In this document: positions 42,647-55,294 of the stretch, piece after piece
Layout: each line of letters begins with the position of its first letter
Position numbering within the stretch: position 1 is the first letter of the stretch
From: Elusimicrobiota bacterium
GTDB lineage: Bacteria; Elusimicrobiota; Elusimicrobia; UBA1565
Length of the DNA stretch: 64,000 nt
NCBI GenBank assembly: GCA_016196755.1
Contig: JACPXC010000031.1
Span: 55,354-119,353, forward strand
Direction: 5' to 3'
Notes under the pieces: generated by a model
What the model was told of the DNA's origin: nothing
What the model saw: the letters and a program-made list of their open reading frames with translations, nothing else
Database searches by the model: none
Made by a program: the position numbers and the translations under genes

Positions 42647-44275
42647 TTAGAACGCGCGCGTCAGCGAGACGTTGAGGTGGGAGTAGAACTGCGTAGTCGA
42701 GATCTCCTGCCTTGCGTACGAGAGGCCCAGCGCCGTCTTCCCGGCCGTCCAGGACAGGCCCGCCCCAAGGTTCAGGGAGCGTCCCGCCACGGCGCCCTGG
42801 GCGTTCAAGCTCAGGCGCCGGGTCGGCAGCCAGCTCAGGTTCAGGGACGCCGAGCTGGCTTGGTTCGCCGTGCCCCGGTTCGTGCGCGTGCGAGCCGTAG
42901 CGGCGTGGAGGCTGGCCCGGACGGATTGGCGCGGCGCCGCCTCGAGTCCGAGGCTGGCGCGGTCGGAGACGCTGATGATGCCGGTGTCGCCGCCGCGCTG
43001 GCGGTCCTGTTCGAAACCGAGGTTGAGCCGCGTGTCGCGGCGAAGCTGGATGTTCGCCGCCGCGTCGCCCTTCTGGGTGAGCGAGGAGGGTCCCCCGCCC
43101 AAGCTCCGCGCCGTCGCGGCCTGAAAGCCCACGCTGAGGTTCTGCCCCGGCCTGGGGATGAGGCTGACGCGCGCCGCCGCCCCGTCGCTGCGGCTGGCGG
43201 GCCCGCCGGAGCCGTCGGACCAGCCGCTGGAAAGGCTCTGGCTCAGGGCCAGGCGGCCCTTCCGGAAACGCTCGGTGAAGGAGAACGCCTCGGAGACGGT
43301 GCGCGAGGTCCCGGCCCCCAGCGCCAGGCCCGTCGCCAGGCTGTTGCTCACCGCGCCCCAGCGCGTCTCCATGTTCGAGAGCAGATCCGCCGCGGAGACG
43401 TCGGTCTGGCCTCCCGTGATGGCGTTGCGGTAGTACGAGCTCGAAGCTCCCGCGGAATGCTGCCAGCGCCCCTTGACCAGCGGCAGGGAGCGCAGGCTGG
43501 CGTCCGCCGTCAGGTCCTTCTCGCGGAGCTCCCCCTGCGTCTTGGTAGCGAGCACGGCCGAGCGCAGGGACAGGGCCTGCAAGCCGAGTTTTTTTAAGCC
43601 GAAGCGCTGGTAGTCGACCCGGCCCTGGCGCGTCTCGCTCAAGCGCCGCTCGGTGCCGCCCGTCACGTCCAAGAGGGCGGAAGAGCGCCGCTCCAGGGCC
43701 AGGCGGAAAGCCCCGCGCGACCAGCCCAGGTTCTCGCTGGCGGAGAGCCCTTTCTCATCGAGGGGCGAGACCGAGCTGGGGTCGCGGCTGCGCGAGAAGC
43801 CGCGCGAGAGGCTGAAGGACGGCAGTCCGGGCAAGGAGAGGCCGCTCGAGAAGCCGCCGCTCTCCTGCTTGCGCACCCGGCTCGGAGCGTCGTTGTTGGC
43901 CGCCTCCTGGCTCTGGCTCCACGACAGGTTCGGGCTGAACTGGACCAGGCCGCGCAGGCGCGGGCTGAAGAGGTCGGCGTTGGCGGCCCAGGTCAGGCTC
44001 TTTCGCCGGGCGTCCGGGGTGTTCACCGCCTGGCCTACGTCGAAGCCGTCGGTCAGGCCGCCGCGCAGCTCCAGATCCCCGGCCGCCGGGACGAGGAGGG
44101 ACCCGCGGGCGCCCGCGTCATAGGCCTGCGACCACACGGAAGCGCGGCGCGAGCCTCGCGCGTCGCGCACGGAGATGTCGTCGAAGCCCCAGCGGGCCAG
44201 AGCCTCGCGGCGCCACGGCAGCCCCGCCGCGGGCGCGGCCGTCAGCGAGGCCAGGAGGCAGGCTAGGGTTCTCAT
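42647..44275 (-). CDS. outer-membrane beta-barrel protein, putative porin of a porin-cytochrome conduit
   Basis: About 542 residues. A signal peptide (to about residue 18, ending AAG) precedes a protein made of alternating hydrophobic and polar residues in short strands separated by Ser/Gly/Arg-rich turns, and it ends in phenylalanine (LTRAF), as expected for an outer-membrane barrel. There are no heme motifs. ATG 44275 is chosen because GAGG lies 3 nt upstream; TTG 44284 overlapping the upstream stop is an alternative. Directly downstream of an 11-heme cytochrome and upstream of a tetraheme cytochrome, it is a good candidate for the sheath of a trans-outer-membrane electron conduit of the MtrB type, although sequence similarity to MtrB is not evident. 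Confidence 0.72.
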   Translation of the reverse strand: MRTLACLLASLTAAPAAGLPWRREALARWGFDDISVRDARGSRRASVWSQAYDAGARGSLLVPAAGDLELRGGLTDGFDVGQAVNTPDARRKSLTWAANADLFSPRLRGLVQFSPNLSWSQSQEAANNDAPSRVRKQESGGFSSGLSLPGLPSFSLSRGFSRSRDPSSVSPLDEKGLSASENLGWSRGAFRLALERRSSALLDVTGGTERRLSETRQGRVDYQRFGLKKLGLQALSLRSAVLATKTQGELREKDLTADASLRSLPLVKGRWQHSAGASSSYYRNAITGGQTDVSAADLLSNMETRWGAVSNSLATGLALGAGTSRTVSEAFSFTERFRKGRLALSQSLSSGWSDGSGGPASRSDGAAARVSLIPRPGQNLSVGFQAATARSLGGGPSSLTQKGDAAANIQLRRDTRLNLGFEQDRQRGGDTGIISVSDRASLGLEAAPRQSVRASLHAATARTRTNRGTANQASSASLNLSWLPTRRLSLNAQGAVAGRSLNLGAGLSWTAGKTALGLSYARQEISTTQFYSHLNVSLTRAF

Positions 44276-44280
44276 GCGCC

Positions 44281-46170
44281 TCAAGGGTCATAGCCGCCCG
44301 CGTTGGTGTGGTTGTGGCAGCCGGTGGCCTCGCTGTAGCAGTTCGACTCGGCGTAGCTGGTGGGTCCCGCGGCCTTCTTGAAGCCCTTGAGGACGAGCCT
44401 GGAGTACGGCGTGCCGCCGTTGTTGTTGTAGGGAGGGAGGTCGCTGTCGTAGCCGATGAGCCGCCCGCGCTTGGAGCCGTGCGGGAGGCGGACGTGGCAG
44501 GCGACGCAGTGCATCCGCTCGTCTCCGGGATTGCGTCCCTCGTGCTTCTCGTGGACGTTGTTGAACCACTTGGGGCTGCGGCCGGCGTCATAGAGCGGAT
44601 GGCAGTTCGCGCAGAAGAGGTCCGACTGCCAGCCGTTGGCGCCGTCCTTGAGGTCATTGAGGGACCACAGGACGCCGGAAGCGTTGGTGGGCCAATACCT
44701 CCGCGCCCCCGTCAAGAGCCGCGGCACGCTCGAACCGTGCGGCCCCTTCGGGCTGGCCGCGGAGTCGGCGCCGTGACATTCGGTGCAGGACAGCGTCTGG
44801 CTACCGACCCCGCCGGCGTAGCGCGCCGACACCTGCGCCGCCCCGAGGGCTTGGGGGGGCAGCCCCCCGGACCGGCTGTTGAGGCCCGCCAGGGCCGGGT
44901 GCGCCGAGCGGTTGTTCGGGTTGTATTCGAGCGCGGAGTCGGTCGTGCCCGCGGGCGGCGTCGTACCGAAGGCGTAGGAGGAATGGCACTTGAAGCAGAG
45001 CTGATACTGCTTGAAAGACGCCGTGTTCGAGAAAGACTGGCGGGCGTAGGAAGCCTGGGAGGGAGCCGTCCAGGCGGCGGAGCCGTAGAGCGGCTCGACG
45101 CCCCAACCGCCGCGCAGCACGCCGCCTATGAGGTTGCTCGCGGGCGCCGCCGTGCCGGTCTGGGCCTGGTGCGGGTTGTGGCAGTCCCAGCACTCGGCGT
45201 GCCGCGCGGTGTTTCCCAGGTTCGAGGCGTCGGCCTCAGGATTCTTGTGGACGCCGGCCTTCGTCTCCACCGGATGCGTGTACGCCGACGCCAAGAGCGA
45301 CCGGATGTCCTTGGCCCCGGTCAGGGGAGGCGTGCCGTGGCAGCCGTAGCAGGTCTGCTCCTCCGCCCCGCGCAGGAGATAGGCCTGCGCCGCGTTGGCG
45401 CCGTGGACCTGATGGCAGGCGCGGCAGGAATACTCGGCCACCGTGGTCGGCGCCCCGCCGGTCGGGGTGTAGGCCTTGTTCGACACGGCATGCGCGCTGG
45501 CCGACCAGCCGGCCTTGTTGTGGCAGGTCGTGCACAGCGCCGCGCCGGCGTTGGATTTCACCAGGAACTTGCCGTATTGGTCGTCGTGCGGGTTATGGCA
45601 GGACGTACACTCCACGCGGTTGCTCGCCCCGTAGACCTTCACCTTGTCGCCGGGCGGCGGAAGCTGGATCTCGGGGTCGGTGCCCGGCGCGCTGGGCGGA
45701 CCGGCGCCGGGCTTCACATCGTAGAGCACGGGGTGGTCGTTGCGCAGGTCCGCACCGAGGACCGACGCGGCGGCCATCGAGCGGGCGGGGTCCATGGCCA
45801 GGGGCTGGGACATGTTGTAAAGGCTGCCCAGGGCCGTCACCCCGTCGTGGCAGGAGAGGCAGAGCTTGGTCCGGCTGACCTTGAGGTCCTCCATCGTAGG
45901 AACCCGCATCCCCAGATAGGAGTTGAGGTAGTTGGAGGAGTAGAAGGTGAAGGTCTGCTCGGAGTCCTTGCGCCCCCACAAGGCCCGGAACACCGAGGTC
46001 TGGTGGACGGAATGGCAGAACACGCAGGCGCCCTTCTGGCTGGCGGCCCGGGGGCCGCTGGTCGCGCTGTCGGCCGAGAGGTTGTGCTTGGAGCCCAGGA
46101 TCGAGGCCGCGCGCGCGTCGGCGGCCAACAGCGGCGCTGCGGCGGCGAGAACGGCGGCCAGAAATCTCAT
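44281..46170 (-). CDS. 11-heme c-type cytochrome
   Basis: A 629-residue exported protein with a signal peptide ending ARA at about residue 22, then SILGSKHNLS, a start common in large environmental multiheme cytochromes. Eleven CxxCH motifs are visible (CVFCH, CLSCH, CTSCH, CTTCH, CRACH, CYGCH, CWDCH, CFKCH, CTECH, CANCH, CVACH), several followed by NPH or QVH as in doubled-CXXCH proteins. A further cysteine pair near the C-terminus, CYSEATGCH, has the form CX6CH and might be a twelfth, unusual site. It overlaps the NHL gene before it by 4 bases. It probably forms the electron wire of the conduit with the barrel downstream. Confidence 0.9.
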   Translation of the reverse strand: MRFLAAVLAAAAPLLAADARAASILGSKHNLSADSATSGPRAASQKGACVFCHSVHQTSVFRALWGRKDSEQTFTFYSSNYLNSYLGMRVPTMEDLKVSRTKLCLSCHDGVTALGSLYNMSQPLAMDPARSMAAASVLGADLRNDHPVLYDVKPGAGPPSAPGTDPEIQLPPPGDKVKVYGASNRVECTSCHNPHDDQYGKFLVKSNAGAALCTTCHNKAGWSASAHAVSNKAYTPTGGAPTTVAEYSCRACHQVHGANAAQAYLLRGAEEQTCYGCHGTPPLTGAKDIRSLLASAYTHPVETKAGVHKNPEADASNLGNTARHAECWDCHNPHQAQTGTAAPASNLIGGVLRGGWGVEPLYGSAAWTAPSQASYARQSFSNTASFKQYQLCFKCHSSYAFGTTPPAGTTDSALEYNPNNRSAHPALAGLNSRSGGLPPQALGAAQVSARYAGGVGSQTLSCTECHGADSAASPKGPHGSSVPRLLTGARRYWPTNASGVLWSLNDLKDGANGWQSDLFCANCHPLYDAGRSPKWFNNVHEKHEGRNPGDERMHCVACHVRLPHGSKRGRLIGYDSDLPPYNNNGGTPYSRLVLKGFKKAAGPTSYAESNCYSEATGCHNHTNAGGYDP

Positions 46171-47183
46171 CGCGCGGCCTCTTTCAGGTAGCGGAATATC
46201 TGCAGGCGGGAGTTGCGCGTGTCGGCGACCAGGAGCCGGCCGGCCTCGTCGAAGGCGGCCCCGCCCGGCAGATTGAACTCGCCCGGGCCGTATCCGGAGA
46301 CGCCCACGAACAGCAAAAGACGCCCCTGCTCGTCGAAGGCCGAGACCGAGTCGAAAGCCCCATCGACCACCCAGGGGTGGCCGTCGGGGTCGACCGCCAC
46401 GCCGCGCGGGCGGGCCAGGTAGCCGGGACGGTTTCCGGCCTCGCCGACGGCCAAGACCGGGCGCCCCTCGCGGTCGAGGGCTTGGAGGCGGAAGTTCCCG
46501 GAATCGCAGACCCAGAGCCGTCCCTTCGCGGCGTCGTACCAGAGGTAGGTGGGGAAGTTGAAATCCCCAGGCTTGCCGCCGCGCCGGCCGGCCGCGGCCA
46601 GGAAGACGCCGTCCAGGCTGTAGAACGAGACGCGGTGGTTAAGGGTGTCGGAGACATAGAGCCGCCCGCCGCCCACGGCCAGCCCTACGGGCCGCCCCAG
46701 TCCCATCGGGTCGCCGCGCAGCTCGCCCGCCATGCGTCCGGCGGCGTCGAGGATGAAGACCTTGCCCAGCGCGGAATCGGCCACGAAGAGGCGCCCATCG
46801 GGCGCCGCCGCCACCGCCACTGGGCTCTCCAAGACCTTCTCGCCCCCTTTAGGCAGCCAATCCCCCTTCGCCGTCGCCTCGTGGTAGCGGAAGACCCCCT
46901 TGGCCCCCGGGTCGGCCACCCAGATGACCCCGCCGCGGGCGGCGATGCCGGTGGGAAGCACCAGGCCTCCTTCCCCGCCGCGCGCCGAGTCGCCCGGGAG
47001 CACGCCGAGCAGGACGTTGAGCAAGCGTCCCCAACCGCCCTTCGCCTCCCGGGCCAGCGTCCCGGATACGGCGCGCTCGTAGACCAGGCGCGGCGGATCG
47101 GGCGGCGGCGGCCAGCGCGGCGCTTCGGACGCCGCGCTGGCCGCCGCCGCGCACAGCAGCGCCGCGCTCGCGAAGCTCTTCAT
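46167..47183 (-). CDS. NHL-repeat six-bladed propeller, exported
   Basis: 338 residues starting at ATG 47183 (ATGA overlap with the zinc-ribbon gene). A signal peptide runs to about residue 20. Six NHL repeats follow, each with a pattern such as PxGIAxxGxxxWVADxGxxxV and ending with a strand, for example VADSALGKVFILD and VADTRNSRLQIF. This makes a complete six-bladed propeller in the periplasm. NHL proteins often accompany multiheme cytochrome and porin genes; a scaffold or docking role is likely but not demonstrated. A second NHL protein is encoded at 48548. Confidence 0.86.
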   Translation of the reverse strand: MKSFASAALLCAAAASAASEAPRWPPPPDPPRLVYERAVSGTLAREAKGGWGRLLNVLLGVLPGDSARGGEGGLVLPTGIAARGGVIWVADPGAKGVFRYHEATAKGDWLPKGGEKVLESPVAVAAAPDGRLFVADSALGKVFILDAAGRMAGELRGDPMGLGRPVGLAVGGGRLYVSDTLNHRVSFYSLDGVFLAAAGRRGGKPGDFNFPTYLWYDAAKGRLWVCDSGNFRLQALDREGRPVLAVGEAGNRPGYLARPRGVAVDPDGHPWVVDGAFDSVSAFDEQGRLLLFVGVSGYGPGEFNLPGGAAFDEAGRLLVADTRNSRLQIFRYLKEAAR

Positions 47184-47569
47184 AACGCCTCCATGAAGAC
47201 CGGGCGCAGGACGGGGTCGGCGAGCACGGCGCGCAGGGCCCGCCGCAGGCGCCAGGCGGTTGATATCTTGACGCCCAAGCGCCGAGCCAGGTCCGCGCAC
47301 GAGGGCTCGCCGTCGAGCATCAGCCGGGCCGCGCGATGCCAGGCCGTCAGCGGAAGGTGCGAACGCGCCATGGGGGTGCCGGTCAGATCGTTGAAGACCC
47401 GCCCGCAGGCCAGACAGCGCAGCTTCCGGCGCCCCGAGGCGTCCTCGCGCATGAAGACCCCGCAGCGGGGGCTGGCGCAGCGCGGGCAGCGCAGCCCGGC
47501 CCTCCAGCGCGCGGCCTGCAGGCGTTTTAGGAGCGGGACGTCGGAGCCGGTCGATGTCATCAACCTCAT
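47180..47569 (-). CDS. zinc-ribbon/HTH protein derived from IS1595-type transposase N-terminus
   Basis: About 129 residues. CPRCASPRCG and CLACGRVFNDLTGTP form a zinc ribbon (about residues 27-62), followed by SHLPLTAWHRAARLMLDG and LARRLGVKISTAWRLRRALR, a helix-turn-helix (about 97-116). This order is the N-terminal part of IS1595/ISXO2-type transposases, but the DDE catalytic domain is absent and the protein ends at MEAL. The stop overlaps the ATG of the NHL gene (ATGA), so it is translated as part of the cytochrome operon; no inverted repeats or target duplications were seen. It is probably a domesticated DNA-binding regulator. ATG 47569 has GAGG 9 nt upstream. Confidence 0.72.
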   Translation of the reverse strand: MRLMTSTGSDVPLLKRLQAARWRAGLRCPRCASPRCGVFMREDASGRRKLRCLACGRVFNDLTGTPMARSHLPLTAWHRAARLMLDGEPSCADLARRLGVKISTAWRLRRALRAVLADPVLRPVFMEAL

Positions 47570-47602
47570 GGGGTACAACCTCAAACGGAACGATGCGCCG
47601 CG

Positions 47603-47628
47603 AAAAAACCCCCGGGTTGTCCGGGGGT
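47603..47628 (-). terminator. rho-independent terminator after tetraheme paralog A
   Basis: On the minus strand ACCCCCGG-ACAAC-CCGGGGGT is a perfect 8-bp stem followed by six T. It lies 15 nt after the stop at 47643 and separates the tetraheme gene from the zinc-ribbon gene, so the downstream genes need read-through or their own promoter. Confidence 0.85.
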
Positions 47629-47642
47629 CCTTTCTTACGTCC

Positions 47643-48371
47643 TTACTTGTCGTGGCAGGCGAGACAGCGGTCGCCCTTGCGGAGGACCTTGCTCGAAGCC
47701 AGCTCTCCGCGGTGCATCGAGTGGCAGCTGACGCAGCCGACGGTGCCCAGATAGTCCATCTTGACCTGAGCCGAAGGCTCGGTCGGAGCGTCAGGATAGT
47801 TCGTCTGCATCCCGGCGAAGAACCCCTCGGTGCCCCAGGGGATGCGGATGCCGACCGGGTGCTTGCCGTGCAGGTCGGTGCCGAAATTCTTGGCCACGCC
47901 TTGCGTGCCGGCCATCTTGATGCCGCCGCCGATGGCGGTGACGCCGTCGTGGCAGGAGAGACATCGGCCGGAACCGGACTTCTCGAAGGCCGCGACCGAG
48001 ATAAAGCGCGCGTCATCGGCGCCCAGGGTCTTGCCCGCGTACTCGAGCTGATCGGCGCCCGCTCCTGCGACGCCGGCGCTGAGCTGCTCCGTCCCTTGCG
48101 CGTCGTACACGACCCAGGTCTGTCCGGGCGTGATGGTGCGCTTCCACAGGGACTTGAACTGCACCGGCTTATGCGCCGTATGGCAGGTGCCGCATTTGCC
48201 GGTGTAGCTGGCCGGCGTCAAGGTCGCCACGACTCCCATCGACGACAAGCCGACATATGGCACCGAGAAGTCGTGCTTGGAGCCCGCTATCTTCTTGCCG
48301 AATTCGTTGGCGAACGCCGGCGAGCCGATCGCGGCCGCCAGCAGCACGCCCGTAATCAATCTCCTCATCAT
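47643..48371 (-). CDS. tetraheme c-type cytochrome, paralog A
   Basis: 242 residues. Of three nearby ATGs, 48371 is preferred because AAGGAG lies 6 nt upstream (48377 is adjacent to it, 48368 is 9 away). A signal peptide ends AFA at about residue 20, and the mature protein begins NEFGKKIAGSKHDF. Four CxxCH motifs are present (CGTCH, CLSCH, CVSCH, CLACH). It is the duplicate of the protein at 41860-42600. A sigma-54 promoter candidate with a 41-nt leader precedes it, and a strong terminator follows, so it can form its own transcript at a high level. Probably a small periplasmic electron carrier. Confidence 0.9.
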   Translation of the reverse strand: MMRRLITGVLLAAAIGSPAFANEFGKKIAGSKHDFSVPYVGLSSMGVVATLTPASYTGKCGTCHTAHKPVQFKSLWKRTITPGQTWVVYDAQGTEQLSAGVAGAGADQLEYAGKTLGADDARFISVAAFEKSGSGRCLSCHDGVTAIGGGIKMAGTQGVAKNFGTDLHGKHPVGIRIPWGTEGFFAGMQTNYPDAPTEPSAQVKMDYLGTVGCVSCHSMHRGELASSKVLRKGDRCLACHDK

Positions 48372-48422
48372 TTTCATCTCCTTGGGGAATCTGTCTTCGC
48401 GAGACATCGCAACAGACCGATG

Positions 48423-48438
48423 TGCAACGAACATTCCG
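48423..48438 (-). promoter_or_regulatory. sigma-54 (-24/-12) promoter candidate of tetraheme paralog A
   Basis: Minus strand CCGGAATGTTCGTTGCA: GG (48437-48436), N10, GC (48425-48424), with the TTGCA of the -12 consensus intact. Predicted start about 48412, leaving a 41-nt leader with a Shine-Dalgarno. An NtrC-type activator is encoded two genes upstream. Confidence 0.68.
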
Positions 48439-48547: not shown

Positions 48548-49690
48548 CTACTTCTTGGCCGGCTCGCTCGACGCGGGGACCTCATAGGCGGAAGCCGGCA
48601 CCTTGAGGTACTGGAACACCTGCACCCGCGAGTTGTTTCCGTCGACCACATAGACCCTGTCGGTGGGGTCGATGGCGATGCCGGCCGGCATGCCGAACTC
48701 GGCCGACCTCCCCCCGGGGGCGCCGAAGTACATGAGGAGCTGTCCTTGGCGGTCGAACATCTGGACCCGGCTGAACACCGCGTCGACGACATAGATGTTC
48801 CCGTCGGAGTCCGACGCCACGCCGCGGGGCCGGGCCATATAGCCCGCGCTGTCTCCGGCCTCGCCGAAGCCGGAGATGAAGGCGCCCGTGGAGGTGAACA
48901 GGTGCACCCGCGCGGCGACCGGGTCGGAGACGACCAGCGTGCCGTCGGCTTCGGCCCAGATGTTCGCCGCCAGCGACAGGGCTCCGACGTCCTTGCCGCC
49001 CTGGCAGAAGGCGCGCAGGAACTTCCCCTCGGGAGAAAAGGCCGCGAGACGATGGTTGCCCGAGTCGATGACGACCAACTCGCCGCGCGGCGACCAGGCG
49101 AGGCCGGTGGGACGATTGAGCTCGCCGGCCACGGTACCCAGCCGGTCGGCGCGCCAGCGCGGCTTATGGTCGGGGCCGAAAGCCTTGACCGAATTGTCCG
49201 CGGAGTCGGAGACGTAGACGTTGCCGGCGGGGTCCACCGCCACGCCCACGGCCGAGGTCAGGGCGAAATCCCCCGAGCCTTCCAGGGACTTGGCCTTGCC
49301 GGCGCCGGGGTCGAGGATATGGAGCCGGCCCGTGCCCGTGTCGGTCACATAAATACGCCCCTTGGCGTCCAGGGCGATGCCGTAGGGCCGGTCCAGGATG
49401 TCGCTCTTGGAATCGGAGCCGAGCAGGGCGTCCATGAAGTCGCTGAACAGACCGGGCTTGCGGCCGCGCAGGTCGTTGCGGTTGGCCAGCGACCGGAGCC
49501 ATTTGATGCGGGTCGGGTCGGGCTCCCCGGGGAACTCGGTCTGAGGCGGCAGGCGCTCGGGCTTCTTTGCGGCGCCCTTGGCGGCCCCGGTGGAGACGGC
49601 GGCGGCGGGAGCGGCCGGTTCGGCCGCCGCGCCGGCAGGAAGGACGTTGATGGTTACGAGAAGCGCGAGGATCCGGGTCATGGCGGTCAT
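48548..49690 (-). CDS. NHL-repeat six-bladed propeller, exported
   Basis: 380 residues starting at ATG 49690, which overlaps the stop of the regulator-cytochrome fusion gene (ATGA). A signal peptide (to about residue 22) and an Ala/Pro-rich linker precede six NHL repeats, for example GIALDAKGRIYVTDTGTGRL and GVAVDPAGNVYVSDSADNSV, ending with GIAIDPTDRVYVVDGNNSRV and a polar tail. It is a relative of the NHL protein at 46167 but longer at the N-terminus. Its translation is coupled to the fusion protein, so it may bind that protein's periplasmic heme domain; this is inference. Confidence 0.86.
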   Translation of the reverse strand: MTAMTRILALLVTINVLPAGAAAEPAAPAAAVSTGAAKGAAKKPERLPPQTEFPGEPDPTRIKWLRSLANRNDLRGRKPGLFSDFMDALLGSDSKSDILDRPYGIALDAKGRIYVTDTGTGRLHILDPGAGKAKSLEGSGDFALTSAVGVAVDPAGNVYVSDSADNSVKAFGPDHKPRWRADRLGTVAGELNRPTGLAWSPRGELVVIDSGNHRLAAFSPEGKFLRAFCQGGKDVGALSLAANIWAEADGTLVVSDPVAARVHLFTSTGAFISGFGEAGDSAGYMARPRGVASDSDGNIYVVDAVFSRVQMFDRQGQLLMYFGAPGGRSAEFGMPAGIAIDPTDRVYVVDGNNSRVQVFQYLKVPASAYEVPASSEPAKK

Positions 49691-51993
49691 TTGTCGTGGC
49701 AGGCCGAGCACGAGCTGTCGGGGTCGACGGTGAGCAGCTTCTTCTGCTTGCCCGCGTGCGGGTCGTGACAGGAAGCGCAGTCGAACCTCTTCTCCGGGCG
49801 CCTCGGGTCGGCCAGCTCCTCCTTGGAAGTCCGGTGTCCGGCGATGGGATGGTTGTTCTTGAGCGCGGCGTCATGGCAGGCGAAGCAGACCGTCTCGAGC
49901 GCGTCCTTTCTCAGGCCTGGGCGGCGGCGCACATGCGGGTCATGGCAGGCCAGGCAATCGCCGCCCGCGAACGGCGGGTGAACGACCGGCAGCTCGCTCT
50001 TCCTGCGGAAGTCGGCGTGGCAGAGGAAGCAGGTCTTCTCCGGGGTCTCCTTGAGGGCCGCCTTCCCATCCTTGGAATCGTCGTGGCACATCTCGCAGGA
50101 GCGAGACCCGAAGGGCACGTGCTCCTTGCCCCCCGCGATGACCTTGGGATTGTCGGAGGCGTGCGGGTCGTGGCAGGACAGACAGCTGCCCTGGAACTGG
50201 GTGACGCCGTTGTGGGCCTTCTTCAGGGGGTCTTCGCCGGCCTGGTGACACTGGGCGCAGAGCTCGCCCGCCGGCTGGAGCAGCAGGCGCGGCTCCTTGG
50301 AACCGTGCGGGTCGTGGCAGAGCGAGCAGTCGTTGTCTTTGAAGGCGGGGTGGACCGAGGCCTTCTTCAAGCCCTCCTCGCGGTCCTTGTGGCAGGAGAC
50401 GCAGAGCGGCCGGTAGTCCAGCTTGAGCTTCTTGGGGTCGGCCGGGTCGCCGTGGCACTCGGAGCATTTCCCCTCGGCCACCGGCTTGTGGGCGCCGGGG
50501 GCCGCCATGAGCTCCTTGGCCTTGGCTTCGTTGGCCTTGTAGAACGCGTCGGTCTTGGCGGGGTCCTCTTTCTTGGCCTCGCCGAACCAGCCGGCCCAGG
50601 ACGCGGCCAAGGGGAGGATGAGAAACAGGACCGCCGCCACCGCCGCCTTGAACCCGAATTTCTCGAGGCGCCGGCGCAGGGAGTCGCGGCCGATGCCTAG
50701 CAGCTGTGCCGCCTTCTGCTGGTTGCCGCCGCAGCGGGTCAGGGCTTCTTGGACCATGGTCTTCTCCATCGTCTCCAGATCGAGCTCGCGCTCGCCGTGA
50801 GCGGGCGGCGGCGGAGTCTCCTTTGGCGGCGCAGCCGCGCCGCCCTTCGGCCGGCACTCGCATTCCCCGAGGATCAGCATCCGCTCGAGGACGTTGCGCA
50901 GCTCGCGCACATTGCCGGGCCAGGCACCGTTTAGGATGGCCTCCCGGGTCTCGACCGACAGGGCCGGGCGGGGCCGGCCCAGCTCGCGGCACAGCCGCCC
51001 CAGGATGAAGTCGGTCAGGGGCAGGATGTCCTCGCGGCGCTCGCGCAGGGAGAGCAAAGTGATGGTCAGGGCGTTTATGCGGTAGTAGAGGTCGGTGCGG
51101 AACCTGCCTTCCGCCACGGCCTTCGCGATGTCCTCGTTGGTGGCCGCCAGCACGCGCACGTCGACGACCACGTCCTCCGTCCCGCCCACGCGCATGAAGG
51201 TCTTGTCCTCCAAGACGCGCAGCACCTTGGCCTGCAGGGCCAGCGCCATGTGGCCGATCTCGTTGAGGAAGACGGTGCCGCCGTCGGCGGACTCGAAGAT
51301 GCCTTTCTTGCGGGCCAGCGCCCCCGTGAACGCCCCTTTCTCGTAGCCGAAGAGCTCGCTCTCGAGCAGGTGCTCCGGGATGGCCGTAGCGCTGACCTCG
51401 ATGAACGGCGAGCGGGCGCGCGCGCTCTCGTAATGTATGGCGCGGGCCAGGCGGTCCTTGCCGCAGCCAGACTCTCCGAGGATGAGGACGTTGCCCTGGG
51501 GGCTGGCGGCGATCTTGCGCGCCATCGCTACGGCCTCCCTCATGGAGGGGCTCTCGCAGACGATGGAGTCGAAGTTGTATTTCTCGCGCCGCTTGCGGTG
51601 GGCGTCGGCCAAGCGGGTGCGCAGCTGGGCGGTCTCGAGGACGCGCTCCAAGGTGATCTTGAGGCCCCCGAGCTGGAGGGGCTTGGAGATGTAGTCGGCC
51701 GCCCCCTCGCGCAGGGCGTCCACGGCGCTGGAGAGGTCGGCGAACCCGGTCATCAGGATGACGGGCATGGCGGGATGGCCCTTGCGCACCTCCCTTAAGA
51801 GCTCGAGGCCGTCCTTGGCGCCCAGGCGCAGGTCGGTGAGGACCAGGTCGGGCTGCTCCTTCTCGACTATGGCCAGCGCCTCGGCGACGCCCTCGGCGGA
51901 GAAGGTCCGATAGCCGGCCGCCGCCAACTCCTCCGAGAGCGACCAGCGGATGAGCTCCTCGTCGTCGACGATCAGGATCTTGGCGCCCTTCAC
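49687..51993 (-). CDS. NtrC-type sigma-54 response regulator fused to a membrane segment and an 11-heme cytochrome
   Basis: A 768-residue single open frame. Residues 1-120 are a receiver domain with D10/D11, phospho-acceptor D54, T82 and K104. Residues about 145-380 are an AAA+ sigma-54 activator domain with Walker A GESGCGKD and an intact GAFTGA loop; Walker B reads FLNEIG (N244-E245) where FLDEIG is usual. Residues about 410-449 are a Fis-type HTH (GGNQQKAAQLLGIGRDSLRR). Immediately after the normal NtrC end comes a hydrophobic segment (about 450-468, AAVAAVLFLILPLAASWAG) and then a 300-residue domain with eleven CxxCH motifs, many followed by DPH. Topology predicts cytoplasmic regulator, one membrane pass, periplasmic hemes. 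It overlaps the heme-kinase stop (ATGA). An internal GTG at the start of the hydrophobic segment, with AAGG 5 nt before it, could also yield a separate cytochrome. Confidence 0.85.
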   Translation of the reverse strand: MKGAKILIVDDEELIRWSLSEELAAAGYRTFSAEGVAEALAIVEKEQPDLVLTDLRLGAKDGLELLREVRKGHPAMPVILMTGFADLSSAVDALREGAADYISKPLQLGGLKITLERVLETAQLRTRLADAHRKRREKYNFDSIVCESPSMREAVAMARKIAASPQGNVLILGESGCGKDRLARAIHYESARARSPFIEVSATAIPEHLLESELFGYEKGAFTGALARKKGIFESADGGTVFLNEIGHMALALQAKVLRVLEDKTFMRVGGTEDVVVDVRVLAATNEDIAKAVAEGRFRTDLYYRINALTITLLSLRERREDILPLTDFILGRLCRELGRPRPALSVETREAILNGAWPGNVRELRNVLERMLILGECECRPKGGAAAPPKETPPPPAHGERELDLETMEKTMVQEALTRCGGNQQKAAQLLGIGRDSLRRRLEKFGFKAAVAAVLFLILPLAASWAGWFGEAKKEDPAKTDAFYKANEAKAKELMAAPGAHKPVAEGKCSECHGDPADPKKLKLDYRPLCVSCHKDREEGLKKASVHPAFKDNDCSLCHDPHGSKEPRLLLQPAGELCAQCHQAGEDPLKKAHNGVTQFQGSCLSCHDPHASDNPKVIAGGKEHVPFGSRSCEMCHDDSKDGKAALKETPEKTCFLCHADFRRKSELPVVHPPFAGGDCLACHDPHVRRRPGLRKDALETVCFACHDAALKNNHPIAGHRTSKEELADPRRPEKRFDCASCHDPHAGKQKKLLTVDPDSSCSACHDK

Positions 51994-53438
51994 GCGGCCT
52001 CCTTGGCGCGGGGGAGGCGCACGCTCGCCGTCGTGCCGCTCTCGGGGTCGCTCTCGAGCCAGAGCTCCCCCCCGTGCGCTAGCACGATCTGGCGCGTGAT
52101 GGGGAGCCCGAGGCCGCTGCCGCCGTCTTTGGTGGTGAAGAACGGCTCGAAGACCCGCTCGAGCTCGCCGGGGGCGATCCCGGGACCCGTGTCGCGCACG
52201 GTGACGAGGACCTCGGAGTCCCCATGGGGAGCGGCCGCCACCTCCAGCACGCCCCCCTCCCCCATCGCCTGCACGGCGTTTAGGCAGAGGTTGAGGAAGG
52301 CCTGCTCGAGCTGGCCCGGGTCGCCCATGAGGCGGGGCAGGGACTCAGGGACCTGCAGGCGCAGCTCCACCTTCTGAGCCTTCATGCGCGGGCCCACGAG
52401 GAAGAGCACGCGGGAGAGCGCGTCCTTGAGCGCGAAGGGCCGCGGCGCGGCCTCGGGCAGGCGCGCGTAGCGCAGGAAATCCCCCATCGTGCGGTCCATG
52501 CGCTGCAGCTGCAGGAGCATCTTGTCTATGAGGCCGCGGCGCGGCGAGCCCGCCTCGGCCTCGCGCTGGAGGACCTGCAGCGCCGAGGAGAGCCCGGTGA
52601 GCGGGTTGCGCACCTCGTGGGCCAGCTGGGCGGCCAGGCTGCCCAAGGCGGCGAGGCGGTCGGCCTGGCCGAGCTGCTTGCGGTGCAGCTCGACGATCTC
52701 GCCGCGGTCGCGGGCGATCTCCGAGACCATCGTATTGAAGCCGTCGGCGATGACCTGGAGCTCGCCGGGGAGCCTTCCTTCCACGCGGGCCTCGAAGCGC
52801 CCCTGCCCCACTTCGCGCATGGCCGCGGTGACCGAGCCGAGCGGGGCATGGACCAGGAACCGGACGATGGCCAGCGACGCCAGCGCGACGACGAGGGTCC
52901 CGGCGCAGGCCATCGCCAAACGGCTGCGCACGAGGCTCCGGCGCAGCTGGGCGCGCTCGGCGTCGGAGGCCAACAAACGCAAGGTCCCGAGGCGCCCGGA
53001 GCTGACGCCGTGGCAGCGCGCGCAGGAAGGCTTGGCCTCGATGGGGACCTCGTAGACGATGCTGCCCGGCGGAGGGGCGGGGGCGGCCGAGCGCGGGCCC
53101 CGGATGTCGGCTAAGTCCACGAGCCTCCCTTGGGCGTCAAGGAGCTCGGCGGCCCCGGCCTGCGGACGCTCGGCCAGGACCCGGAACAGCTCGCCGATGT
53201 GCTCGGGGGACCCATGCTCCATCGACTGCTCGATGAGACTCACCACGACCGGCGACATCGCGCGCAAGCTGCCAAGCTGGTGCAGGGTGAGGCGCGTCGT
53301 CAAGGTTCGCATGTCATGGAGAAACGAACCGGCGAAGACCAAGCCTACGGCCGCCGACACCGCGACGAACACCTGCAGAGCGAGGGGAAACCGAAGCGGC
53401 CTCCCGAATCGCGCAGCCAAGAACGGAGCGCCGGCCAT
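51990..53438 (-). CDS. membrane sensor histidine kinase with periplasmic heme-c motif
   Basis: 482 residues. Two membrane helices (about 18-38 and 172-193) enclose a periplasmic domain with one c-type heme motif CARCH at residues 139-143, resembling DUF3365-type heme sensor domains. A HAMP linker (about 195-245) leads to the kinase core: phospho-acceptor H274 in LAHEVRNP, NLCLNAVQA (N box), DTGPGIA (G1) and GGSGLGLPI (G2). It should autophosphorylate in response to redox state or a heme ligand and pass phosphate to D54 of the overlapping regulator-cytochrome fusion. A sigma-54 promoter candidate lies 17 nt before the ATG, which implies autoregulation. Confidence 0.9.
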   Translation of the reverse strand: MAGAPFLAARFGRPLRFPLALQVFVAVSAAVGLVFAGSFLHDMRTLTTRLTLHQLGSLRAMSPVVVSLIEQSMEHGSPEHIGELFRVLAERPQAGAAELLDAQGRLVDLADIRGPRSAAPAPPPGSIVYEVPIEAKPSCARCHGVSSGRLGTLRLLASDAERAQLRRSLVRSRLAMACAGTLVVALASLAIVRFLVHAPLGSVTAAMREVGQGRFEARVEGRLPGELQVIADGFNTMVSEIARDRGEIVELHRKQLGQADRLAALGSLAAQLAHEVRNPLTGLSSALQVLQREAEAGSPRRGLIDKMLLQLQRMDRTMGDFLRYARLPEAAPRPFALKDALSRVLFLVGPRMKAQKVELRLQVPESLPRLMGDPGQLEQAFLNLCLNAVQAMGEGGVLEVAAAPHGDSEVLVTVRDTGPGIAPGELERVFEPFFTTKDGGSGLGLPITRQIVLAHGGELWLESDPESGTTASVRLPRAKEAA

Positions 53439-53453
53439 CTCGATTTCTCCATA

Positions 53454-53469
53454 AGCAACGATTCAGCCT
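53454..53469 (-). promoter_or_regulatory. sigma-54 (-24/-12) promoter candidate of the heme kinase gene
   Basis: Minus strand AGGCTGAATCGTTGCT: GG (53468-53467), N10, GC (53456-53455) with TTGCT. Predicted start about 53443, five bases before ATG 53438, so the mRNA would lack a Shine-Dalgarno leader. Confidence 0.5.
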
Positions 53470-53496: not shown

Positions 53497-53525
53497 TTGA
53501 TTGCCCGGGGCGGCGGGTCTAGACT
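53497..53525 (+). promoter_or_regulatory. sigma-70 type promoter of the divergent cytochrome gene
   Basis: TTGATT (53497-53502) and TAGACT (53520-53525) with a 17-bp spacer, 13 nt before ATG 53539. A GGGAAGGGA Shine-Dalgarno region lies between. Confidence 0.5.
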
Positions 53526-53538
53526 GGGAAGGGACCCC

Positions 53539-54132
53539 ATGCGCCGACTCTCCCTCGCCCTGCTGGCGCTCGCCGCCCTCCTGGTCATACCGAAGTCCCT
53601 GGACTTATTGCGCGCCCGGCGGCGGCCCCCCCTCGACCTGCGCGACGCCGTCGGCTCCGCCGACCAGCGCGACCTAGCGGCCATCCACGAGGCCGCCGCG
53701 GGAGGAACGCCGAGCTGCGGCTGGTGCCACCTCGACGCGCGCCCCGGCGCCGCGCGCGCGGCGGCCTCCGACACGAGCCGCTGGCTGGCCTCGCTCTCGG
53801 ACGCCGCCGCCGACGCCTCCCCGGTCGACACGCCGCTGTGCCTCTCCTGCCATGACGGACGCAGCGCTGCCGCGGCCCCCAACAGCCTGCCCGGGCACCG
53901 CAACCCGGCCATCGAAGCCGGGGGGGCGAACCACCCGGTCGGCCTCGACTACCTGACCACGGCCATGGAACAGCCCCAGTTCTACCATCACCCGGCCGTT
54001 CACTCCGAGATCCGCCTGGAATCGGGGAAGGTAGGCTGCACGTCCTGCCACGTCGGGCATGCCCGAAACGGCCTGGTCGGAGGCCCGGCCGCGCTGATGC
54101 GCGATTCCTGCCTGTCCTGCCATAACCTGTAG
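53539..54132 (+). CDS. tetraheme c-type cytochrome, membrane-anchored
   Basis: 197 residues with an N-terminal hydrophobic segment (about residues 5-22) followed by basic residues; no clear cleavage site, so it may stay as a membrane anchor. Four CxxCH motifs: CGWCH, CLSCH, CTSCH and CLSCH. A group of histidines in FYHHPAVHSE could supply distal heme ligands. It is divergent from the kinase gene and could pass electrons from the quinone pool to the periplasmic cytochromes or to the kinase sensor; inference. ATG 53539 has a purine-rich Shine-Dalgarno. It has its own sigma-70-like promoter. Confidence 0.85.
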   Translation: MRRLSLALLALAALLVIPKSLDLLRARRRPPLDLRDAVGSADQRDLAAIHEAAAGGTPSCGWCHLDARPGAARAAASDTSRWLASLSDAAADASPVDTPLCLSCHDGRSAAAAPNSLPGHRNPAIEAGGANHPVGLDYLTTAMEQPQFYHHPAVHSEIRLESGKVGCTSCHVGHARNGLVGGPAALMRDSCLSCHNL

Positions 54133-54194: not shown

Positions 54195-54210
54195 TGGAAG
54201 TTCTGTTGCT
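54195..54210 (+). promoter_or_regulatory. sigma-54 (-24/-12) promoter candidate of hemA
   Basis: TGGAAGTTCTGTTGCT: GG (54196-54197), N10, GC (54208-54209), with good TGG and TTGCT cores. Predicted start about 54221, at the GTG/ATG start region, giving a leaderless hemA mRNA. Confidence 0.6.
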
Positions 54211-54223
54211 AGTTTCAGCCGTG

Positions 54224-55294
54224 ATGGCAGCCGAACTCCTGGTCGTGGGCCTGAACCACCTCGGCGCGGCCGTCGAGGTCCGCGAGGCCATGGCCAAGAA
54301 GGCCGCCGAGACCGGCCTCTTCAACGCCGTCGTGCGCGACGCCGCCGGGCTCTCCGACTGCGTGGTGCTCTCCACCTGCAGCCGCTTCGAGGTCTACGCC
54401 GCCACCGACGCCGCGGGCGAGGCGCGCCTCAAGGCCATGCTCTCCGCGCGCGCCGGCCGGAGCCTCGACGGGGTCCTGTACACCCACCGCGGCGCCGAGG
54501 CCGCCCGCCACCTCCTGCGCGTGAGCGCCGGGCTGGACTCCTGGATCGTGGGCGAGACCGAGATCCTCGGCCAGGTGAAGGCCGCCTACGCCGACGCCGC
54601 GGCCGAGAAGACCGCCGCGCGCGCCGAGCATCTCGTGTTCCAGCGCGCCCTCTACATGGGGAAAAAGGTGCGCGCCGAGACGCGCATCGTCGACGGCATC
54701 GCCTCCATCGGAGGGGCCGCCGCCATGCTGGCCCGCCGCCTCTTCGCCGACATCACCCGGAGGAAGGTCCTGGTCTTCGGGGCCGGCACGATGGCCGAGT
54801 CCACCGTCCGCCACCTCTGCTCCAAGGGCGTGGCCGGGGTATGGGTGGCGAACCGGTCGCTCGACAAGGCCCGGGCCCTGGCCGCGGACCTCGACGGCGG
54901 GGCGCTGAGCCTCGAGGACGGCTTCGCCAAGCTCAAGGAGGCCGACATCATCGTCGTCTCCACGGGCGCCGAGGGCTACCTCCTCGACGCCGCGCGGATC
55001 CGGGAGGCCGCGGCGGGACGGGGCGGCCGGCCGCTATTCCTCATCGACATCGCCCTGCCGCGCAACATCGACCCGGCGGCCGCGGGACTCCCCGAGGTCT
55101 ATCTCTACGACTTAGACGACCTGCGCCGGATGATGACCGAGAGCCTGGCCCGGCGCAAGAAAGACTGCGACCGGGCCGAAGCCATGGTCGCCGCCGAGGC
55201 CGACGCGTTCTGGCTCGCGCTCAACGCCCCGCCGCTGCCGCCCTCCGCGCGGCCCCTCACGCGCGCGCTGGCCCGTGCGGCGGCCGCCGCCTGA
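54224..55294 (+). CDS. hemA: glutamyl-tRNA reductase
   Basis: 356 residues. VVGLNHLGAAVEVREAM opens the protein; the catalytic cysteine is in VLSTCSRFEVYA (about residue 50), the GETEILGQVKAAY signature follows (about 108-120), and the NADPH domain has VFGAGTMAEST (about 183-193). It reduces Glu-tRNA to glutamate-1-semialdehyde, the first step of C5 heme synthesis. The family usually has 400-450 residues; here the C-terminal dimerisation domain is shortened. ATG 54224 or GTG 54221 may be the start, both at the predicted sigma-54 transcript end. Next to cytochrome genes and sharing their promoter type, it probably boosts heme supply when the conduit is expressed. Other heme genes are not in the window. 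Confidence 0.9.
   Translation: MAAELLVVGLNHLGAAVEVREAMAKKAAETGLFNAVVRDAAGLSDCVVLSTCSRFEVYAATDAAGEARLKAMLSARAGRSLDGVLYTHRGAEAARHLLRVSAGLDSWIVGETEILGQVKAAYADAAAEKTAARAEHLVFQRALYMGKKVRAETRIVDGIASIGGAAAMLARRLFADITRRKVLVFGAGTMAESTVRHLCSKGVAGVWVANRSLDKARALAADLDGGALSLEDGFAKLKEADIIVVSTGAEGYLLDAARIREAAAGRGGRPLFLIDIALPRNIDPAAAGLPEVYLYDLDDLRRMMTESLARRKKDCDRAEAMVAAEADAFWLALNAPPLPPSARPLTRALARAAAAA

Follow-up and report, generated by a model that had tools for sequence, protein, structure and literature searches.

A gene of Elusimicrobiota that joins a sigma-54-type response regulator to an eleven-heme-motif cytochrome, probably through a cleavable internal signal peptide

Introduction

What does a gene make when a complete response regulator runs on, without a stop codon, into a multiheme cytochrome? 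The question is raised by a gene on the minus strand (49687..51993) of the 64,000 nucleotides analysed here, which come from Elusimicrobiota, a bacterial group that has received little study (the window; GenBank assembly GCA_016196755.1, contig JACPXC010000031.1, positions 55,354 to 119,353). An initial annotation, which placed the gene correctly but gave no strand, had described a regulator, a hydrophobic segment and eleven CxxCH motifs in a single frame, and the open reading frame, the order of the Pfam domains and the codons all bear this out. The reading that we prefer, and to which we give somewhat better than an even chance, is that one gene encodes a sigma-54-type response regulator and an eleven-heme-motif cytochrome, and that the joint between them is a cleavable internal signal peptide. 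In a limited literature search we found no description of this regulator-cytochrome fusion, in agreement with the initial annotation, which knew of no described family with this order. As far as that search shows, a two-component activator and a multiheme cytochrome made as one conserved polypeptide are undescribed.

A regulator and a cytochrome in one reading frame

The N-terminal part of the fusion has the order of the NtrC/AtoC-type regulators (group I enhancer-binding proteins), namely a receiver, an AAA+ domain with a GAFTGA or GSFTGA loop and a Fis-type helix-turn-helix (HTH) domain. It differs from them in its C-terminal extension, a signal-peptide-like segment and a cytochrome, and in the replacement of the Walker B aspartate by asparagine. 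The best NCBIfam matches are AtoC and NtrC, both under the cut-off (best 25 of 128 matches). Asp54 of the receiver (in DLRL), which we take to be the phospho-acceptor, is kept in at least 90% of 25 aligned rows. The Walker A motif is GESGCGKD, the GAFTGA loop is seen in the translation, and Walker B reads FLNEI instead of FLDEI, a detail absent from the initial annotation. A codon listing shows no stop at the junction, which reads LRRRLEKFG-FKAAVAAVLFLILPLAASWA-GWFGEAKK, and all eleven CxxCH motifs follow in the same frame downstream of the HTH.

The closest solved relative of the cytochrome half is 6r2q_A (phmmer 6.3e-15, profile search 1.7e-26), a chain that is presumably MtrA; the entry is titled 'Structure of the Mtr complex' in the fold search and labelled 'Cystathionine beta-synthase' in the phmmer and profile listings. 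Foldseek matches a model of the cytochrome to the same chain at E 7.6e-4 with a template modelling (TM) score of 0.29, the model being of moderate quality with a predicted local distance difference test (pLDDT) of 66.1. MtrA-like periplasmic multiheme cytochromes are thus the best structure match by profile and by fold, but the fusion has eleven CxxCH motifs, not the ten that we take to be usual there, and an attached regulator. No decaheme family model is among the best 25 of 128 NCBIfam matches, where TIGR01905 is the only cytochrome model. The full-length structure model is poor (pLDDT 59.4), and we place little weight on either model.

Occurrence of the fusion in related genomes

The fusion was sought in genome sets of its own family (8), class (235) and phylum (340). 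Within the family, a full-length fusion of the same kind, 73% identical, is found in G002, and G001 has one whose start is lost at a contig end. At E 1e-100 the fusion matches 22 of the 235 class genomes, and 11 of these matches, that of G001 without its start included, extend across the junction as far as the cytochrome's end. The match in G193 and G213 crosses the junction and then ends at a contig end; contig C80 is the one that shows the G213 fusion, and contig C7 has more of the G213 cytochrome. In G207 the regulator and the cytochrome lie at two contig ends, and we infer a fusion across the break. With the cytochrome half as the query, 18 of the 340 phylum genomes match at E 1e-45. Fourteen of them have the fused gene (the junction is readable in 13; G207 is the inferred case) and four a separate cytochrome gene (G005, G150, G151 and G152), the match in G151 being a more distant cytochrome at 41%. 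Relatives therefore do not always keep two genes, the outcome that would have spoken against the initial annotation.

The protein database holds at least 33 fused clusters among the matches listed (32 of the best 120, and P0020), ten of which are identical over 120 junction residues to the genome loci. Named fused clusters are assigned to Elusimicrobia or Elusimicrobiota, one of them just to 'bacterium', and their usual annotations are 'sigma 54-interacting transcriptional regulator' or 'predicted CXXCH cytochrome family protein'. The same domain order, which the initial annotation had proposed to look for in relatives, is thus found in other assemblies and protein clusters alike, and it is kept across two families of the order.

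Such recurrence bears directly on the objection that an assembly or sequencing artefact hides a stop codon. The same join is present on single contigs in 13 genomes and in protein clusters of several sources, ten of them matching those genomes at the junction. As the same join occurs in other assemblies, a stop missed in the window assembly is not a viable explanation; a missed stop or frameshift at the junction is ruled out by independent relatives, and we give an artefact almost no probability. The fusion is a real, uninterrupted gene, conserved among related Elusimicrobiota.

Among the 37 fused rows collected, 36 have a cytochrome and 32 have eleven CxxCH motifs. Fewer motifs are found in P0076 (seven), P0082 and P0125 (six each) and P0127 (three), all four shortened or seemingly frame-damaged near the end, and none in P0129. 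In this last row, from a contig of 3247 bases, NHL repeats take the cytochrome's place behind the same regulator and joint, and it is the only such case among the 120 matches listed.

The joint resembles a cleavable signal peptide

The junction was aligned for 35 distinct fused rows, without choosing any site beforehand and leaving out P0129 and one duplicate. Residue 467, the -1 position of the putative cleavage site, is Ala in 34 rows (P0004 among them) and Ser in one, with an entropy of 0.19. Residue 465 (-3) is Ala in 28, Ser in four, Thr in one, Gln in one and a gap in one. At residue 466 (-2), at least nine kinds of residue occur (entropy 2.02), and residue 464 has an entropy of 2.44. 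Signal peptides of free-standing cytochromes line up with the hydrophobic segment; in the cytochromes of G005, G150 and G152 the -1 Ala and the Gly after it recur at matching positions, with Ala, Leu and Leu, respectively, at -3. The layout of a signal peptide (n-region, hydrophobic core, small residues at -3 and -1) is found throughout the fusions, P0004 alone being without the core.

Substitution rates were estimated by pairwise counting over eight locus pairs, several of them having a member in common. Change is fastest in the junction, where the ratio of nonsynonymous to synonymous change (pN/pS) is 0.40, as against 0.18 in the receiver, 0.18 in the AAA+ domain, 0.19 in the HTH, 0.25 in the linker and 0.32 in the cytochrome; the synonymous divergence (Ks) of the junction is 0.61 and not lowered. 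Because the junction changes fastest, the kept Ala does not reflect a mere lack of divergence, and a near-invariant -1 Ala with a small -3 residue and a free -2 position in such a region is the pattern to be expected from selection for cutting by signal peptidase. On these sequence comparisons the joint is likely an internal signal peptide, cut by signal peptidase after Ala467.

Signal-peptidase cleavage had been raised in the initial annotation only as an alternative, and the alignment with signal peptides and the kept (-3,-1) site now make it more likely. What that annotation had preferred was a tethered, redox-wired activator with the regulator inside and the hemes outside; its fusion stands and the predicted topology fits, while the kept (-3,-1) site leaves permanent tethering less supported.

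Proposed mechanism and alternative readings

If the joint is cut, the C-terminal half would be exported by Sec while the regulator stays in the cytoplasm, and cutting would yield two proteins, a cytochrome of 301 residues in the periplasm, predicted to be loaded with heme, and a regulator that its hydrophobic tail would hold at the inner membrane. Since a hydrophobic tail would be left after the cut, membrane docking of the regulator may survive it. The adjacent kinase, which has a heme-c motif of its own, would sense periplasmic redox state or a heme ligand and phosphorylate the regulator; the regulator in turn would act at the sigma-54 promoters that serve its own operon and hemA, and heme supply, electron-transfer cytochromes and regulator would rise together. 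Fusing the two halves would fix regulator and cytochrome at 1:1 and would put the regulator at the membrane. The gene would then encode a bacterial polyprotein, in which a single round of translation delivers both a regulator and an exported redox protein. A precedent for such export is the Bradyrhizobium FbcH cytochrome b/c1 precursor, in which a c-type cytochrome is exported from the middle of the product by means of a cut internal signal peptide, although we found no paper confirming this; FbcH joins two respiratory subunits, whereas the present fusion joins a transcription factor and a cytochrome.

Several points weigh against this proposal. The uncharged stretch of about 20 residues might also anchor the protein permanently. 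P0004 keeps both halves but not the hydrophobic core, and P0032 aligns with Ser at -1. The (-3,-1) motif was possibly inherited in part from a free-standing cytochrome; two of three free-standing proteins have Leu at -3. For a bulk electron carrier, production at 1:1 with a regulator would be strange. Sigma-54-type boxes, described below, also stand before six of 16 hemA copies elsewhere in the genomes and are absent from the G005 copy, and the window kinase has a degenerate box only. Finally, cleavage, export, heme loading and DNA binding are all predicted steps.

The most serious competitor is an uncut, membrane-tethered activator, in which the segment would be a permanent anchor and the redox state of a covalently attached, eleven-heme periplasmic antenna would control the sigma-54 activator. 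It would resemble ToxR and CadC, winged-helix one-component regulators that stay uncut as sensors, with the DNA-binding part inside, one membrane segment and the C-terminal part outside; the fusion differs from these in having no winged helix, a receiver, AAA+ and Fis HTH (HTH_8) domains in its place, and a likely signal-peptidase site. The segment is single, with a strongly positive cytoplasmic side (RRRLEKFGFK) and no stop, the link from the HTH to the segment is short in the aligned fusions, and the low-confidence model continues the HTH helix into the segment (436-459). A 1:1 ratio would also fit a sensor better than a carrier. Yet the (-3,-1) site is kept while -2 varies, and Ala-Gly stands in the same columns as in free-standing cytochromes; thus the segment could anchor, as in ToxR and CadC, but the kept cleavage site speaks against permanence. 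The heme-c motif of the upstream kinase would also make a second heme sensor unnecessary, and the NHL repeats of P0129 in the cytochrome's place, a single case among the 120 matches listed, likewise argue against it. We regard the uncut form as a real possibility but a doubtful one, and favour the cleaved form over it; both would leave the regulator at the membrane, and they differ in whether the hemes stay attached. It is conceivable, though rather improbable, that the attached transcription factor at the membrane directly senses how heavily the cytochrome is loaded with electrons, or whether it has been successfully exported and cut. With similarly limited probability, such a readout would make transcription of the heme and electron-transfer genes depend on the state of the co-made cytochrome, and an uncut protein would link electron flow outside the cytoplasm straight to transcription.

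Two further explanations are less probable still. The join might be a neutral operon fusion, created by loss of a stop codon, in which the regulator tolerates a tail and the joining itself has no function. The unfused relatives P0130-P0133 and P0135-P0137 end at, or within about 7 residues of, the point where the fusion continues, and G005 and the f8 genomes G150 and G152 manage with separate genes, as this explanation would expect. It is made unlikely by the persistence of the fusion across two families, by purifying selection on both halves (pN/pS 0.18-0.32), and by the position of the G005 cytochrome inside the fused group, from which separation appears possible yet rare in the sample. A little less likely again is that one frame gives two products, the cytochrome with its signal peptide being made mainly from an internal start in the HTH region and the fusion being minor. 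A Met at residue 443 (RRR-M-EKFG), directly before the signal-peptide-like segment, is present in 23 of the 35 distinct fusions, but its ATG has no Shine-Dalgarno (SD) match in any of the eight loci carrying it, and in three of the 12 loci listed codon by codon (L060, L068 and L076) the stretch that begins eight codons ahead of RRxEKFG and extends beyond the segment contains no ATG, GTG or TTG. Five-base SD matches do occur at some starts 26-32 codons upstream (AAGGA at -26 codons in L063, L067 and L068; AGGAG at -28 in L076), and the separate cytochrome gene of G005 starts with an ATG of its own, preceded by the SD-like gaggagaaaggagcaa. Among control genes, the best early start has an SD match of at least five bases in 75 of 164 and a shorter one in 89, so that the SD sequence is informative but not universal here; the unlowered Ks at the junction gives no sign of an additional nucleotide signal. 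Production from a near internal start is therefore disfavoured, and starts at -26 to -32 remain the candidates for this explanation.

The Walker B motif

The AAA+ domain presents a puzzle of its own. Walker B is FLNEI in 36 of the 37 fused rows, the remaining one not being scorable, and the NtrC-type pattern hhhhDE is absent from all scorable fusions. The same Asn is found in the 12 closest unfused relatives (P0128 and P0130-P0140). Over 87 unfused rows the motif is FLDEI in 42, FLNEI in 16, LLDEI in five and FLNEV in one, and 23 were not scored by the pattern. The sigma-54 loop of the fused rows is GSFTGA in 22, GAFTGA in 11, GAFTDA in two and GSFTSA in one, with none in the last. In PspF, the D107A change is reported to lower Vmax from 39.51 to 0.23 per min (PMC3419264). 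By analogy the Walker B Asn may impair ATP hydrolysis, a further point against the favoured reading, whereas conservation of the AAA+ region (pN/pS 0.18) argues for function. The fusion family thus raises the question of how sigma-54 activators work with Asn in Walker B.

Origin of the fusion

In the trees, the G005 cytochrome nests inside the fused group (99/99); weakly supported forks put the regulator of G005 (P0136, together with P0137) beyond the main group of fusions, beside the fused rows P0032 and P0038. The nested cytochrome disfavours G005 as an ancestral two-gene state, and on these phylogenies a later hybrid or split looks likelier. About 540 bp separate the regulator and cytochrome genes there, and in this gap (L072 8740-9260) one frame resembles, by eye, the end of a spermidine-synthase-like protein. 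P0129 groups with P0124 (95/72), amid regulators of the fused kind. A single, clean origin does not follow from the trees, as the regulator tree needs two label changes and has several weak forks. P0128, counted here as unfused, resembles a broken fusion; P0134 and P0140 look by eye like chimeric regulators with halves of different subfamilies, and are possibly assembly errors.

Gene neighbourhood and sigma-54-type boxes

A kinase with exactly one CxxCH motif lies directly upstream of the fusion in 13 of 13 loci with that side present, its end ranging from a 4-nt overlap to 16 nt before the fusion. In the nine loci with a called NHL-repeat gene, that gene shares 4 to 25 nt with the end of the fusion; L060 has no such call, and three loci break off at this point. 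Further downstream the gene run includes four-heme cytochromes, a second NHL protein and a second eleven-heme cytochrome. The kinase resembles the heme-c periplasmic sensor domains DUF3365/sCache_heme (PMC12889525) in having a CxxCH motif in its predicted periplasmic domain, but no Pfam match of its sensor domain to that family is listed at E up to 10, and its assignment to DUF3365 was rejected. The genome itself has two matches to RpoN, three to signal peptidase I and three to cytochrome c assembly.

Boxes of the form TGG-N8-TTGC, which we take to be the -24/-12 spacing of sigma-54 promoters, precede hemA in 11 of 12 loci, the kinase in five of 13 and four-heme genes in six of 14, a set that probably includes one or two divergent copies. 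None was found upstream of the fusion itself (0/13), the divergent cytochrome (0/10) or an NHL gene (0/2). Shuffled sequences average 0.02-0.19 boxes (0.09-0.19 for the hemA, kinase and four-heme sets), and eight other spacings give 0 or 1. The loci are related, so the boxes are not independent events; their eight spacer bases do differ. For the 30 hemA copies assigned to a locus, a box stands before 12 of 13 fusion-adjacent copies, six of 16 others and none of one in G005; the copies elsewhere led us to reject the box as a mark of the fusion only. Several hemA copies occur per genome, with three matches in G000, in the window and at C37:160149 and C12:1229.

Table 1. Features of the fusion gene and its surroundings in the window.
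Feature	Position	Strand	Basis or remark
Fusion gene, 768 codons + stop, GTG start	49687..51993	-	ORF read from window sequence
Receiver domain, residues 6-112	51658..51978	-	Pfam Response_reg 5.2e-26
Sigma-54 AAA+ domain, residues 144-311	51061..51564	-	Pfam Sigma54_activat 3.6e-64
Walker B Asn244 codon	51262-51264	-	
AAA_lid_14, residues 317-376		-	Pfam
Fis-type HTH_8, residues 406-446	50656..50778	-	Pfam 4.8e-14
Hydrophobic segment, residues 448-467	50593..50652	-	putative internal signal peptide
Predicted cut after Ala467	50593/50592 boundary	-	predicted
Eleven-CxxCH cytochrome domain, residues 468-768	49690..50592	-	six Paired_CXXCH stretches (Pfam)
Histidine kinase, 4-nt overlap with fusion	51990..53438	-	sequence, Pfam
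CARCH heme-c motif in predicted periplasmic domain of kinase	53010-53024	-	
Degenerate box AGG-N8-TTGC before kinase, not a strict match	53454..53469	-	by eye
NHL-repeat protein, 25-nt overlap with fusion end	48548..49711	-	
Four-CxxCH cytochrome	47643..48434	-	
Second eleven-CxxCH cytochrome, 629 aa, same gene run	44281..46170	-	
Divergent four-CxxCH cytochrome	53497..54132	+	
Sigma-54-type box TGG-N8-TTGC before hemA	54195..54210	+	
hemA as called	54206-55294	+ (divergent side)	later ATG is the likelier start

Two other frames deserve mention. A 545 aa exported-looking protein (42647-44284, minus strand) adjoins the second eleven-heme cytochrome; it has no NCBIfam match and is perhaps, by eye, an outer-membrane barrel. 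A small frame that by eye resembles a zinc ribbon with an HTH is kept inside the cytochrome gene run, at 47180-48016 (minus strand) in the window and at L060 11269-11673, L063 2477-2869 and L072 5401-5781.

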